From a virus: a stretch of 32,482 bases of DNA. Below, in pieces: positions 670 through 23,205 of the stretch (its first letter is position 1; each line of letters starts with the position of its first letter). The notes under the pieces are model-generated. The model was given only the letters and a program-made list of their open reading frames with translations. It searched no databases and had not been told where the DNA came from. The stretch lies in the IMG/VR virus record IMGVR_UViG_3300044819_000043, positions 1 through 32,482 of that record; one strand, given 5' to 3'. The position numbers and the translations under genes are program-made.

Positions 670-1297
670 CGCGACTTCACTTTTTTCTGGTTTTCGCACT
701 GTTTCCGCCCTCTATATAGCAGCCGAAAATATTTCCAGAATTCCAGCAATTTTCCCACTGGACACTTAAGCAAGCGACTGCCGATCGGTTTTTTCGACAT
801 GACTATCACTTGGAAGAACGGAAAAGTAGTAGTGTAGGCGGGTCACTGAATACCCCAGACGGGTGGAAAAAAGCCCTATGCTCCGTGCTCCGCTCTCCAT
901 TAGTGGTAGAAATCGCCCGCATACGCGCGTGCGCGGGTAAAAATGGCCGAAACTGCCCCTTCCATTAGCAGTATGTAGGCCCCCCCATAGCCCATCGCAC
1001 CCCCCGAACTAGGTACTCCAACACCTTTTACTATGTGCTTGCATACGGCTGGTGTTTCCAGCGAGATGGCATTAAACGCTCTATACGCGATTCTGGCGGG
1101 CTTTGGCTGTTAGGTGGCGTTTTGGTCGAGTAGGTAGCGGCGCGTGGCGTAGGAGCGACGTGTGAGCGTCAGATGGGACGGAGGCGATGAAGGCGATGAT
1201 CGCGGAGCCAGCGTAATGCTTATATGCCGATAGCCATTTTGGCACACTTGGGGGGTGCTTGTTTTGGTTGCTGAGCGACGACCGCAATGCGCACTAG
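670..1297. other. Gene-poor stretch
   Basis: No ORF here has convincing composition, start signal or homology. The part at 680-770 is relatively AT-rich for this window and has T-runs. C-runs occur near 979-986 and 1001-1007, and an alternating purine-pyrimidine patch lies near 920-940. A 12-codon ORF (799-837, beginning MTITWKNGK) has no clear ribosome site. Together with the iteron-like repeats just downstream this could be a control or origin region, but nothing in it proves that. Confidence 0.4.
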
Positions 1298-16964: not shown

Positions 16965-17743
16965 AAACCCTAATCGCCCTACTGCTGCTCACCGCGACGG
17001 CTGCCGCCCAGGTGCCGCCGTCCGATCCGCACTCGGCGTCGAGCGTACTGCACGCGGCGTTCCACGACGACCCGTTCGGCGATCAAAGCGGTGATACCAC
17101 CAGAATGATCGCCCAGGGCGTCCTGCCTGATCCGCCTGCCGCCGCCGGCAAGCCGATATGCACCGGCACGGCCTGGACGACGCCGATGAAGGCGGCGGAC
17201 CCCACCGACCCCCTGGACTCGCTCTATCAGGCCAGCAAGACCGCCGACGCGGCATTGGACCAGACCGTGCAGCAAGAGGCGGCGGCGGCCTCAGCGCACG
17301 CGGCAGCGACCCAGGCGAGGCAGTCGGCCAAGGTCATCAGCGACAAGGCGGCGGCCGACTTCGCGGCGGAGTGGCAAAAGCGGCACGGCGGGGTCACTCC
17401 GCCCCCGACACCGCCGAGCCCTCCGCCAACGCCACCGGCACCGATCCCCGTTCCGCCACCCGCCGCCAAGGTATCGCTGCTCTTGATTTCCTCGCTGCCC
17501 GGCGACGGCTTCAAGTGTGCCGCGTGCGATGACGTGGCGACAAACACGATCCCCAAGCTGAGTCTCGGCGACCAATTACGGGTCATCGGCTGGTCGGGCG
17601 ACGAAGCCAAACGGCCAGAGAATCGTTTCGACGCCAGAATTCCGCGATGGAAGTTGACGCGGGGCGACGGCACTACGGAAACCTTCGTCGGCAAACTGTC
17701 GGCGGAACAAGTCACAAACTGGATTGCAGGGACCAAACCATGA
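16961..17743 (+). CDS. Secreted thioredoxin-like protein with Pro-rich linker
   Basis: A 260-residue protein chosen at the ATG at 16961 (ATGA overlap). Residues 1-17 (MKTLIALLLLTATAAAQ) are a clean signal peptide. The middle is Ala/Asp/Gln-rich and helical. A Pro-rich hinge of the TPPPTPPSPPPTPP type follows at about residues 145-170. The C-terminal 85 residues read as a thioredoxin fold: VSLLLISSLPGDGFKCAACD with a CxxC (CAAC), a middle strand (LRVIGWSG), a cis-Pro-like RIPRWKL, then TRGDGTTETFVGKLSAEQ. It would be exported and may act on disulfides. Its stop overlaps the start of the protease-intein gene, which makes a functional link with a cysteine protease attractive though unproven. Confidence 0.6.
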   Translation: MKTLIALLLLTATAAAQVPPSDPHSASSVLHAAFHDDPFGDQSGDTTRMIAQGVLPDPPAAAGKPICTGTAWTTPMKAADPTDPLDSLYQASKTADAALDQTVQQEAAAASAHAAATQARQSAKVISDKAAADFAAEWQKRHGGVTPPPTPPSPPPTPPAPIPVPPPAAKVSLLLISSLPGDGFKCAACDDVATNTIPKLSLGDQLRVIGWSGDEAKRPENRFDARIPRWKLTRGDGTTETFVGKLSAEQVTNWIAGTKP

Positions 17744-19752
17744 ATCGAGCCCGAGGCCGAGTCAATCCGCAGAACATGGCGGCCCAGCACTTGCGGCACG
17801 CCGAGCGGCACGCGGCAATCCATTCCGGGTTCCGAACGGCCGCCGCCGCTCCATTGCCCGACAGCTACGACTGCACGAATCTCTGCACGCCCGTAAAAAA
17901 CCAGGGGCAATGCGGTAGCTGCCATGATTCGGCTACCGAGGTTTTGACTGAGAAAGGTTGGGTCGCGTGGCCGGAATATAACTGGATCACGCCGCTTGGC
18001 ACGATGAATCCGGCGAGCGGATTTCTCGAATTCCAAGTCCCTATCGTCAAGCATATCTACGATCACGATGGCCCGATGTACTTTTACGACGGCCGCTCGC
18101 TGGATTTCGCCTTGACTCCGAATCACCGCATGGTTTGGGGTCGGAACAAGGGATCGTGGAAAAAGTCCGCCATCTCCAATATGCCGCAATACGCGGACAT
18201 TCCTCATGCGACGGTTGGTTGGAAAGGCACGGAACTCAAGCGGCTCGGAATCGCTGATCGCACCTACGACGGCGATGACCTTTTGGCCTTGGTTGCTCAC
18301 GTCATTTCGTGCGGACACGTCGGGCATCAGGATGACGGCAATGGAGGCCGGAACAAGATTACGTTTTCATGCTTCCGCGACGAACGGATTGAGCAAGTGC
18401 GGTCGCTGGCTTATCGGCTCGACATCCCTGAGCAAACTTCGCGGCCCGGTGTCTGGTACTTCCGCGATGCGGAATTGGCCGAATGGTTCCGGCAGAACGC
18501 CTACGACGGCCGCGGTTTCAAGGCGGGGCACAAGCGCGTGCCGATGCTCGTCAAGTGCGCGAGCCAGCGGCAGATTGAGCATTTTCTGTCTGCCTTCGGG
18601 GATCAGCATAGGCAAAGCTACGGCGGTCGGCGGTTCTACAGCGGCAGTCGGCTGATGATCGACGATCTCCAGGAACTCTTGCTGCGGATCGGCAAGCGCG
18701 GCACGATTGAGGAATATCCGCCGCGCGAACATGGCACGTTTCACGGCACGCTGCCGGAGTTGATGCTGACGGAGCGTAAGCGTGATAGCCTCTGCGTCGA
18801 AAAGGAGAACACTCGCACGGACCACTACAAGGGAAAGGTCTACTGCGCTACAGTTCCCAATGGAACGCTCGTGACCCGCCGCAACAAGCTCGTGCTCATT
18901 AGTTCGAATTGTTGGGACTTCTCAGGTACTTGCATGGTCGAGGCGGCGAACATCTTCACCACCACCCTGCCCGACAACTCGGCGGCCAGCCAGCTCTCCG
19001 AACAGTACACGCTGGACCAGTGCGACGGCAGCAACGGCGGATGCGGCGGCGACAACAACACGACCGTCCTCCAAGATGCCAAGACTGGTGGGCTGCCGCT
19101 GACGAGCGTCTACGGCCCCTACACGGCGAACGAGGGAAGTTGCAAACTGCCTCGCGCTCGCATCAAGACCACTCCCGGCGTTGGGCTGCTCTACACGATT
19201 TCCGACTGGGGCTATGTGGGTACGCAAGCCGGCGTTCCGGCGACCGAACTAATCAAGGCGGCCATGCTGCAATATGGGCCGATCGGCGTTGCCATTGCCG
19301 CTGATAATGCCTTTGAGCGATGGGGCGACAGCGGCCCGAACGACGCGACGTTTCCTGGTTCTGGCGCAAGGGACATCGACCACGATGTTGTGCTTGTCGG
19401 CTGGGACGAGGTTCGCAGGGCATGGAAGCTCCGAAACAGTTGGGGGCCGGATTGGTGCAACGGCGGTTATATCTGGATCGCCTACGGCGCGAACCTCGTC
19501 GGCTATGAGGCGGTGTGGTGTACGGCCGGAACGCCAGTCCCCCGCCCCCCCCCCCCCCCCCCCCCCCCCCCAACCGCCGAAGCCGGTTCCGACGCCCACC
19601 CGCCGCGCGATGGACTTGGCGCACTACCACGCCAGCCTTGGCATTTCTCCCGACCTGTCGATGAGGCTGACTCGTGCCGCCTCGCACCTGTGGGAGATTC
19701 CCGAGGCCCGCCCGATCCTGTTGGAACTGCTGGACGAACTGACGCCGCGTGA
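17740..19752 (+). CDS. Papain-family (C1) cysteine protease interrupted by an intein
   Basis: I start at the ATG at 17740 (ATGA overlap); the frame open to 17647 lies in the previous gene. The 670-residue precursor has a 60-residue N-extein ending TPVKNQGQCGS, a 330-residue intein (61-390), and a C-extein starting CWDFSG. Joined, they give the papain active-site block NQGQCGSCWDFSG, with the oxyanion Gln at 55 and the catalytic Cys at precursor residue 391. The rest of the triad is seen: H548 in DIDHDVVLVGWD and N566 in RNSWGPDW. LSEQYTLDQCDGSNGGCGGD is the usual second block. Only about 40 residues precede the mature-domain start, so there is no I29 prodomain, and no signal peptide is visible. 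The end is a Pro run from the poly-C tract and a frameshifted tail. Confidence 0.9.
   Translation: MNRARGRVNPQNMAAQHLRHAERHAAIHSGFRTAAAAPLPDSYDCTNLCTPVKNQGQCGSCHDSATEVLTEKGWVAWPEYNWITPLGTMNPASGFLEFQVPIVKHIYDHDGPMYFYDGRSLDFALTPNHRMVWGRNKGSWKKSAISNMPQYADIPHATVGWKGTELKRLGIADRTYDGDDLLALVAHVISCGHVGHQDDGNGGRNKITFSCFRDERIEQVRSLAYRLDIPEQTSRPGVWYFRDAELAEWFRQNAYDGRGFKAGHKRVPMLVKCASQRQIEHFLSAFGDQHRQSYGGRRFYSGSRLMIDDLQELLLRIGKRGTIEEYPPREHGTFHGTLPELMLTERKRDSLCVEKENTRTDHYKGKVYCATVPNGTLVTRRNKLVLISSNCWDFSGTCMVEAANIFTTTLPDNSAASQLSEQYTLDQCDGSNGGCGGDNNTTVLQDAKTGGLPLTSVYGPYTANEGSCKLPRARIKTTPGVGLLYTISDWGYVGTQAGVPATELIKAAMLQYGPIGVAIAADNAFERWGDSGPNDATFPGSGARDIDHDVVLVGWDEVRRAWKLRNSWGPDWCNGGYIWIAYGANLVGYEAVWCTAGTPVPRPPPPPPPPPTAEAGSDAHPPRDGLGALPRQPWHFSRPVDEADSCRLAPVGDSRGPPDPVGTAGRTDAA
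17920..18909 (+). mobile_element. Intein with LAGLIDADG-like endonuclease domain, at the protease active site
   Basis: The intein is 330 residues. Block A is CHDSATEVLTEKGW (Cys1). Block B contains TPNH (66-69) in RSLDFALTPNHRMVW. Two LAGLIDADG-like helices are DDLLALVAHVISCGHV (119-134) and QIEHFLSAFGDQHR (218-231). Block F is YKGKVYCATVPNGTL (303-317). Block G ends LVLISSN, followed by Cys+1. The terminal residue is Asn, but the usual penultimate His is Ser, as in some phage inteins of the VPNGTL type. In the first endonuclease helix the expected acidic residue appears to be Cys, so cutting activity is doubtful. The boundaries are exact because removing this piece restores an ordinary papain active site. 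Confidence 0.93.
19545..19571 (+). repeat. Run of 27 cytosines in coding sequence
   Basis: An uninterrupted C27 encodes nine prolines of the linker after the protease domain. Another C5 precedes it (19539-19543), separated by one G. Such a tract is prone to slippage in replication and to sequencing error. Losing one C (or gaining two) would place the downstream sequence in the frame that encodes the likely real C-terminal domain. Confidence 0.9.
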
Positions 19753-21052: not shown

Positions 21053-21110
21053 TCGGGGCGCAGAAACGGCAACGTGGCTGCCTCGGGTGGTTCGATTCCA
21101 CCGCCCTGAG
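21053..21110 (+). tRNA. tRNA-like, 58 nt, lacks a D-arm
   Basis: Acceptor strands TCGGGGC (21053-21059) and GCCCTGA (21103-21109) pair over 7 bp with one G-U. The T-arm is GGTGG-TTCGATT-CCACC (21086-21102), a normal T-loop. A 4-bp stem GGCA/TGCC closes a 7-base loop ACGTGGC (anticodon position GTG). Only 8 bases lie where the D-arm should be, and the base before the anticodon is C rather than T. This is probably a degraded or shortened tRNA; activity is doubtful. Confidence 0.4.
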
Positions 21111-21116
21111 TTTGTC

Positions 21117-21191
21117 GGGTTCGTCGCATAATTGGCTAATGCAGCGGACTTTCAATTCCGTCAGATGCGGGTTCGAGTCCCGCCGAGCCTA
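21117..21191 (+). tRNA. tRNA with an 8-base anticodon loop (UUC or UCA)
   Basis: A full cloverleaf of 75 nt: acceptor GGGTTCG/CGAGCCT, D-stem GCAT/ATGC with GG in the loop, anticodon stem GCGGA/TCCGT, 5-base variable loop, and T-arm GCGGG-TTCGAGT-CCCGC. No CCA is encoded. The anticodon loop reads CTTTCAAT, one base longer than normal. Counting from the 5' side gives anticodon TTC (Glu); counting from the 3' side gives TCA, which would read UGA. Either the loop is a real oddity or one base is an error. tRNA identity is therefore left open. Confidence 0.7.
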
Positions 21192-21214
21192 CTAACCCAA
21201 AGGAGGATTTTCCG

Positions 21215-21615: not shown

Positions 21616-21621
21616 CGTAAC

Positions 21622-21692
21622 ATGGGAGGTAGGTAGGCATCTTCCGAGGTCTCATAAGCCACGGCAACCGGGATCGTTACCCGTGTCCCATG
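21622..21692 (+). tRNA. tRNA-Met-like sequence (CAT), degenerate
   Basis: A 71-nt candidate: acceptor ATGGGAG/GTCCCAT (6 of 7 pairs), anticodon loop CTCATAA with anticodon CAT on a stem with 4 of 5 pairs, and a T-arm whose loop is ATCGTTA instead of the usual TTCGA. The D-stem pairs poorly. It ends two bases from the stop of the minus-strand HNH gene. It may be a tRNA whose 3' part was replaced when that gene inserted. Confidence 0.4.
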
Positions 21693-21693
21693 A

Positions 21694-22338
21694 TTAAGGC
21701 AAAGCAGCGATGAAACCATGATCGAATTCCCAATGGTGATTCGGGCACAGAGGAAGTAGATTGTCGATTGCGTTGATCGAGGAAATCTTTGTTTCCGCTG
21801 GGAAAGCAGAGACTGGCTTTGCGTGAGAGATATTGACATGCAAATCGTATCCGCAAACGCGGCACCGCATCTGAAGGCCGCTGTGCGCGTACACTCTCGC
21901 GGCGTGCCCTCGGATGGCCGATCTGGCGGATTGGTAGCCGGAGCGCGATTTGAACAATTCGCCCTTCGTTCTTTCGCCGATTGGCTCAACACCATTTACG
22001 GCCGGACTTACGGCCGCGCGAATGTTTCGGAGGCACTCGTCGCAGTTTTTTCTGGCGTAGTATGTGCGTCCAACTGGGTACTTTTTGAGGCTTATCAAGA
22101 CTCCGCACGTCTGGCAGTTCGCAGTCGAGTTGCCAGTTTTTTTAGGAGCCTTTTTTGGAAAAAGTCGATTGTTATGCTTGGCTGCGCACGCGCAATCGCA
22201 GAAGGATTTTCTGCGAACATCGTGCAGAGATTGTCCATTGCCAGGCATAATCGTCGCGTTGCAGTGTCGGCAAACTCTCGGATTCGCGAGGTATTTTGCA
22301 AGGGCACGATCGTGTTGAAGTTGTGCTGATTTTTTCAT
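21694..22338 (-). CDS. HNH homing-type endonuclease, flanked by tRNA 3'-end duplicates
   Basis: A 214-residue protein from the ATG at 22338. The longer frame, open to 22626, covers the tRNA-like sequence and a plus-strand gene. The N-terminal half carries zinc knuckles (CRHC ... CDCAC, and CQTC ... CDEC). The C-terminal HNH core reads CRVCGYDLHVNISHA (CxxC and H), then SSINAIDNLLPLCPNHHWEF with the Asn and final His. This is a free-standing phage HNH endonuclease. It is the only minus-strand gene in the plus-strand half. Its ends touch imperfect 28-base copies of a tRNA 3' end (about 21668-21695 and 22381-22408), as expected for insertion next to a tRNA. There is no strong ribosome site. Confidence 0.75.
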   Translation of the reverse strand: MKKSAQLQHDRALAKYLANPRVCRHCNATIMPGNGQSLHDVRRKSFCDCACAAKHNNRLFPKKAPKKTGNSTANCQTCGVLISLKKYPVGRTYYARKNCDECLRNIRAAVSPAVNGVEPIGERTKGELFKSRSGYQSARSAIRGHAARVYAHSGLQMRCRVCGYDLHVNISHAKPVSAFPAETKISSINAIDNLLPLCPNHHWEFDHGFIAALP

Positions 22339-22351
22339 AGTGACATTGTAT

Positions 22352-22404
22352 ATGGGCGGTGAGTTGAAAACAAGGCATAGCCGGGTTCGACTCCCGTGGC
22401 CCAT
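22352..22404 (+). tRNA. tRNA-like remnant, 53 nt
   Basis: ATGGGC (22352-22357) pairs with GCCCAT (22399-22404). The T-arm CGGG-TTCGACT-CCCG has a normal T-loop. Only 22 bases lie between acceptor and T-arm, too few for D and anticodon arms. The 3' 28 bases match the end of the tRNA-Met-like sequence at 21622-21692 with five or so differences. It is best read as the displaced 3' end of a tRNA. Confidence 0.4.
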
Positions 22405-22435
22405 GATTGAAGTCCCGCTTGGAAAGGAGTAAATT

Positions 22436-22719: not shown

Positions 22720-23205
22720 ATGCCGCTTGGAGCCGATGAAGCACTGAAGGCAGCCGCCGCCACCAACAATTGGATGTTCACACTCGTCACGCTCTTCGCG
22801 CTGGCGTTCCTGGCTGTGTTTATTATCGTGGCCAGGTGGTACGTGGATGGCTGGCGAACTGAGCAAGCCTCCACGTCCAAGACGGCCGCCGACAGCATCG
22901 CTGCCAACGCGCGGCTCGTAGCTCAGTACGCCAAGGCCAGCGAGGATCGGGAGTCCAGGATGGGCGAACGACTGACGGCCGTAGAGACCGAGACTCGCAC
23001 GACGCTCATTAGCATGAACAATAAGCTAATTCTGGCGATGAACGATTCGACGCACGCCATCCAGACGATCAACGCCACGATGACTGAGTTGGTGCGCGAG
23101 ACGCGAAACCAGACAGGGGCAATTCAAAAAGCAGCGGGCGAGGTTCACGACGTGGCCGAAGGATCGAAGATCGGTAGGAAAGTGAGTGACAGCGTACACG
23201 AATAA
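22720..23205 (+). CDS. Membrane-anchored coiled-coil protein
   Basis: A 161-residue protein with AAGGAT upstream. After 18 polar residues comes one transmembrane helix, FTLVTLFALAFLAVFIIVAR (about 20-39). It is followed by about 110 residues of helix with Thr, Glu, Arg and Ala in coiled-coil spacing (RMGERLTAVETETRTTLISM and MTELVRETRNQTGAIQKAAG). This topology is like phage spanin- or Rz-like and holin-adjacent proteins. It directly follows the two-pass membrane protein and leads into the tail-spike genes. The stop overlaps the next start (TAATG). The family is not identified. Confidence 0.6.
   Translation: MPLGADEALKAAAATNNWMFTLVTLFALAFLAVFIIVARWYVDGWRTEQASTSKTAADSIAANARLVAQYAKASEDRESRMGERLTAVETETRTTLISMNNKLILAMNDSTHAIQTINATMTELVRETRNQTGAIQKAAGEVHDVAEGSKIGRKVSDSVHE

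Follow-up and report, generated by a model that had tools for sequence, protein, structure and literature searches.

An HNH endonuclease gene between a tRNA-Met-like gene and an anticodon-less tRNA-Met relic in a viral tRNA cluster: a candidate free-standing homing endonuclease

The window, a viral DNA of 32,482 nucleotides (IMG/VR record IMGVR_UViG_3300044819_000043), contains two tRNA-Met-like units, named here C and D, separated by an HNH endonuclease gene that is antisense to both and lies outside both (Table 1). The stop codon of the HNH gene directly adjoins the 3' end of C, and its start codon is located 12 bases from D. The first-pass annotation had described at this place a 28-base repeat with about five changes, a minus-strand HNH gene filling the gap, a left unit resembling tRNA-Met and a normal T-loop in the right copy only, and these observations hold. 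Positions 21668-21695 and 22381-22408 are identical at 23 of 28 bases (82%), the gap is occupied by an ORF with a Pfam HNH_2 domain, ARAGORN calls C a tRNA-Met(CAT), and the T-loop is TTCGACT in D and the unusual ATCGTTA in C. The acceptor strands of C, CATGGGA and TCCCATG, pair at 7/7 positions (a first register, ATGGGAG with 6/7, was dropped in favour of this one) and CCA is not encoded. Nevertheless C is a poor tRNA, with a score below the Rfam tRNA threshold and an odd T-loop. Between the repeats the HNH gene is the sole recognised gene, and no site-specific recombinase is found there.

Table 1. Positions of the features in the window and of the rearranged tRNAs found in other viruses
Feature	Position	Strand	Basis
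tRNA-Met(CAT)-like gene C, complete	21621..21693	+	ARAGORN 21622-21692; acceptor pairing
HNH endonuclease gene, 214 aa	21694..22338	-	ORF, Pfam HNH_2; conserved in relatives
Relic D of tRNA-Met	22351..22406	+	acceptor 7/7; 3' part 23/28 identical to C
Short tRNA-like unit without anticodon arm	21053..21109	+	acceptor 7/7, T arm 5/5, one middle hairpin
tRNA with 8-base anticodon loop (CTTTCAAT)	21117..21192	+	ARAGORN; Rfam tRNA 54.8 bits
Rearranged tRNAs, relatives' arrays	L004 20097, 20180; L016 9883 (-); L020 8304 (-); L030 984 (-); L078 3535, 5246		
Rearranged tRNAs, cultured phages	Karimac L204 about 947-1023; Jay2Jay L203 601-678; E. coli phage 121Q L202 about 596-677; JimJam L205 about 1195-1275		

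The right copy had been taken for a tRNA 3' end only, and this description had to be abandoned. A scan for an acceptor plus T arm detected a 5' acceptor strand belonging to D, TATGGGC (22351-22357), which pairs at 7/7 positions, one of them G-U, with GCCCATG (22399-22405). The 5' end of D is identical to that of C at 8 of 9 positions, and pairing and identity together occurred in 0.035% of trials of a random model (a chance of 0.00035). D retains the acceptor stem and the T arm and is devoid of the anticodon arm and of most of the D arm; its predicted fold is stable (z -2.9). C has A-U as its last acceptor pair where D has C-G, both bases having changed in a compensatory way, and the cross pairings of the 5' strand of C with the 3' strand of D and vice versa reach 6/7 each, each unit attaining 7/7 with itself only. 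Since D has its own pairing 5' strand, similar to that of C, it is a tRNA-Met-like unit without its middle and not a displaced 3' end. The claim that joining the 5' part of C to the 3' end of D gives a better tRNA survives in part. The artificial join recovers a normal T-loop and ARAGORN accepts it as tRNA-Met as well as it accepts C, which makes that impression understandable, but its acceptor drops from 7/7 to 6/7 by breaking the compensatory pair, and hence the sequence lends no support to an exchange of 3' ends.

Two further tRNA-like units of the window point to tRNA decay as a common process in it. The unit without anticodon arm gives a weak tRNA-Sec match (21.1 bits, below the Rfam threshold), and the tRNA with the swollen anticodon loop (ARAGORN 'ttca') would be a tRNA-Glu that has been damaged or else a tRNA of the frameshift type. 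No phage matched the window region in BLASTn, the search for relatives via the DnaB-like helicase returned two 5-kb contigs only, the flanking ORF 22720-23205 had no relative, and these searches identified no close relative of the virus, whether one having the HNH unit or one lacking it. Elsewhere in the window (17647-19752), an intein-like insert that weakly matches LAGLIDADG_3 breaks a Peptidase_C1 (papain-family) protease frame ahead of its catalytic Cys (QCGS / CWDFSG).

The HNH protein is composed of an N-terminal Cys-rich (zinc-ribbon-like) region and a C-terminal HNH_2 domain (Pfam, 4.9e-8), whose Cys, His and Asn positions are invariant in nine aligned relatives. Searches in Pfam, PHROGs and NCBIfam detected HNH_2 only and no GIY-YIG domain, the matches in PHROGs and NCBIfam being weak and generic for HNH. 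In Foldseek the AlphaFold2 model (mean pLDDT 81.6, pTM 0.50) matched best HNH / beta-beta-alpha-metal nucleases, with E values no lower than 0.04, and gave no functional clue. Rfam recognised no intron family in the window region, and the gene is located within neither an intron nor an intein. As in free-standing homing endonucleases, an intact domain of a homing-nuclease class is encoded outside such elements.

About 80 HNH relatives were drawn from IMG/VR and from bacterial genomes, and a tRNA was considered abutting when it lay at the stop of the HNH gene and no more than 45 bases from the conserved HHWE motif. Abutting tRNAs have an NNT anticodon in 24 of 26 viral loci, against 178 of 470 background tRNAs (38%), distributed as Met (14), Arg(YCT) (8), Lys (1) and Thr (1); the corresponding p of 1e-8 is optimistic because a few of the loci are near relatives. 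Among the clade-1 HNHs, a CAT tRNA flanks 13 of 26 arrays when 3.5 would be expected, and is found nearby in 23 of 42 loci, compared with 5% of tRNA-centred places. The choice between tRNA-Met and tRNA-Arg follows the HNH clade, the Met and Arg labels changing three times each on a tree of 79 HNH domains versus 17 times when shuffled. Several HNH reading frames continue through the tRNA 3' end in antisense (with tails such as VGVEGLEPS). The family tRNA may be on either side of the HNH gene and point in either direction, as would be predicted of a free-standing nuclease linked to its target, so that the layout of the window does not single out one insertion event. A literature search retrieved no HNH family with an NNT-tRNA rule, which is not proof of absence. 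Genes of HNH proteins abutting tRNAs are not limited to the family of the window, since in phage JimJam (L205 879-1235) an HNH gene with a different type of sequence terminates within the 5' portion of a rearranged tRNA-Arg(CCT).

In some relatives the HNH gene is placed within a tRNA instead of beside it. L071, L077, L085 and probably L114 have it inside tRNA-Met, at the anticodon loop; in L074 the HNH gene together with a whole tRNA-Met is lodged within the anticodon loop (CTCAAA) of another tRNA, and L015 has a tRNA that is divided at that loop by an antisense HNH. No group I intron was detected at the Rfam threshold at these anticodon-loop loci. The anticodon region, where these HNHs of the family sit, is the region missing from D, and it is also missing from the mini-tRNA of L005. 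By comparison of these sequences, the HNH target site probably lies at the tRNA anticodon loop. Locus L005, from another virus, comprises in order a tRNA-Met, an antisense HNH-like frame, a degenerate mini-tRNA, an antisense family HNH and a mini-tRNA with a 7/7 acceptor and no anticodon region; the folds of the L005 mini-tRNAs have z near 0. The order tRNA-Met, antisense HNH and mini-tRNA is therefore not unique to the window, the cases being few. Tandem amplification of a single tRNA and HNH unit was set aside for L005 because its second gene is, by eye, a different kind of HNH.

Two further sequence features were noticed near HNH genes of the family. In L071 (2570-2640), and at the same place in L077 and L085, a conserved stretch (acggtttaaaagccga...cgaactaa...ggttcg) separates the 5' half of tRNA-Met from the HNH gene; it had no Rfam match and may be an unknown small intron or a regulatory RNA. 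In L117, L119 and L123 the HNH start is preceded by ggtatagtcca...gtgggg/gttggg and then by a tRNA-like T arm. These sequences, also devoid of Rfam matches, resemble by eye the 3' ends of group I introns (cyanobacterial, Anaerolineales genomes).

Relatives include sites both with and without the HNH gene. Among 25 readable loci of Hymenobacter, six have the HNH gene about 130 bases downstream of a tRNA-Arg(CCT) and 19 have the tRNA without it. The Streptomyces phages TomSawyer and Karimac share a left flank (98.2% identity over 937 bp) and a right flank (96.9% over 1143 bp), between which TomSawyer harbours a family HNH (gp109) and a canonical tRNA-Ile(GAT) (L201 1328-1845), and Karimac a different, rearranged tRNA-Ile(GAT) and no HNH (L204 937-1025). 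The TomSawyer HNH and tRNA-Ile would have replaced the resident isoacceptor, or been replaced by it, and the exchange suggests that the rearranged tRNA-Ile(GAT) is able to substitute for its canonical counterpart. Judged from these alignments, the HNH gene appears to move jointly with the tRNA, and the TomSawyer/Karimac exchange comes nearest to demonstrating directly that the mobile unit includes the tRNA.

Taken together, the window gene is rather probably a free-standing homing endonuclease that has its own tRNA-Met, C, and stands beside a relic of tRNA-Met, D, lacking the presumed target. The enzyme would cut the DNA of tRNA-Met genes, most likely at the anticodon loop, and would spread by recombination, the adjoining tRNA supplying both homology and a replacement. 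It would travel as a cassette with that tRNA, and C would have arrived in the window with the HNH gene. D would be a resident or duplicated tRNA-Met from which the anticodon region, the presumed cut site, was deleted, either as the scar of a faulty repair or because the loss protects D, which would then be a cut-resistant allele. Most HNH relatives have no D-like relic, so D could have decayed independently of the HNH gene. Of the earlier proposal, insertion of an HNH unit at a tRNA agrees with a family that is tied to tRNAs, is absent from some sites and moves with tRNA sequence, but not with the detail of the window, where D keeps both acceptor strands and each copy pairs perfectly with itself only. 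The accompanying idea, that the unit supplied a 3' end in the manner of integrative elements, does not fit ends that are only 82% alike and have no recombinase between them. A whole tRNA, not a 3' end alone, appears to travel with the HNH gene.

Other histories of the locus were weighed against this one. Clusters of tRNAs with HNH genes are common in phages, and the window also contains the anticodon-less unit and the swollen-loop tRNA; accordingly, C and D could be two tandem tRNA-Met genes, one of them decaying, between which the HNH gene landed by chance. We regard this as unlikely, given that the placement of the HNH genes is far from random (the 24 of 26 abutting NNT tRNAs), that the Met/Arg choice tracks HNH phylogeny and that L005 has the same layout. 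The model of the first-pass annotation, in which the HNH gene entered a single tRNA-Met and brought another 3' half with it, so that C would consist of the old 5' half and the new 3' half and the 3' half of D would be the displaced original, accounts for the exact contact of the HNH stop with C, for the start of the 3' half of D, which roughly coincides with the position expected after a cut in the anticodon loop, and for the acceptance of the joined tRNA, with its normal T-loop; the HNH gene does separate tRNA halves in L015 and L071. We nonetheless judge it improbable, because the self and cross pairings require one later compensating change in C and the 5' strand of D, hardly attributable to chance, stays unexplained. 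That D is a functional minihelix of acceptor and T arm under selection, for instance as a signal for processing by RNase P/Z or as a homology arm for the cassette, seems very improbable: the compensatory change in its acceptor, its stable predicted fold and the similar mini-tRNA beside an HNH in L005 would fit, but the examples number only two or three and have no sequence in common in their middles, z is near 0 for the L005 mini-tRNAs, and the pairing could be inherited from the full tRNA before the deletion.

The window gene was also compared with known mobile elements. Integrative elements use tRNA 3' ends as attachment sites, and in the window, too, a mobile gene lies between two copies of such an end; nevertheless, a tRNA-integrating element was rejected, as the repeats are not near-identical att sites (23/28), the right copy possesses a separate 5' strand, and the HNH gene is alone between them without a recombinase. 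Group I introns located in tRNA anticodon loops can carry their own endonucleases, a situation resembled by the nuclease genes within the anticodon loops of L071, L077 and L085. Such an intron was discarded for the window, where there is no Rfam intron and the HNH gene is outside the tRNA and on the opposite strand. The nearest functional analogue, by organization, would be SegB of T4 and T6, a free-standing homing endonuclease of the tRNA region that cuts within tRNA genes (PMC13096335, PMC2988022); SegB of T6 amplifies a 718-bp unit of tRNA-Tyr and segB, and SegB amplifies tRNA loci against bacterial defence (PMC13096335). Both are free-standing nuclease genes in phage tRNA clusters, but SegB is a GIY-YIG protein and the window protein, with only HNH_2 and an N-terminal Cys-rich region, is not a member of its family. 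Unlike SegB, the window family selects tRNAs by clade (Met, Arg, Ile) and occurs inside anticodon loops in some viruses and beside anticodon-less relics in a few. The T4 Mob proteins are also free-standing HNH endonucleases, whose known targets in the table of PMC2988022 are protein genes, as with mobE on nrdB; they share with the window gene the HNH class, the location outside introns and inteins, and a target expected in or near the neighbouring gene, whereas that table gives no tRNA specificity for them.

The HNH family bears on the question of why phages carry tRNA clusters and why HNH genes stud them. It offers a sharp rule amenable to testing, namely NNT tRNAs with a putative cut probably at the anticodon loop, and TomSawyer and Karimac provide a cultured pair differing at one site by an HNH and tRNA block. 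Were the rule true, homing nucleases would shape which tRNAs phages carry. In its widest form, which we consider speculative and doubtful, the family would home to tRNA anticodon loops carrying a replacement tRNA and so drive the evolution of phage tRNA genes, the anticodon-less relics (D, L005) and perhaps the rearranged tRNAs being cut-resistant alleles that it left or met.

The rearranged tRNAs have the order acceptor, D-stem 5' strand, anticodon arm, D-stem 3' strand, D-loop motif TAANTGG and T arm. In IMG/VR viral contigs 29 distinct ones, 26 of them with good acceptor and T stems, were retrieved with one pattern, which itself demands NNT and CTC:GAG; their anticodons are Arg TCT and CCT and Ile GAT and TAT. 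The D-stem triplets covary (CTC:GAG, CGG:CCG, CAG:CTG, CCC:GGG and ACC:GGT) in 15 of 17 cases, a score never reached in 5000 trials in which D-stem strands were swapped between these tRNAs. A tie to the HNH family of the window was not supported, one of 39 loci having a rearranged tRNA within 1.2 kb. No paper on a rearranged phage tRNA class with a 3' D-loop was found in a literature search, and none appears among the section headings of a review of non-canonical tRNAs (PMC7609411). The predicted rearranged tRNAs are a widespread and mostly unannotated class that may outweigh the HNH finding in importance; in cultured phages they are mostly unannotated or called tRNA-Leu.
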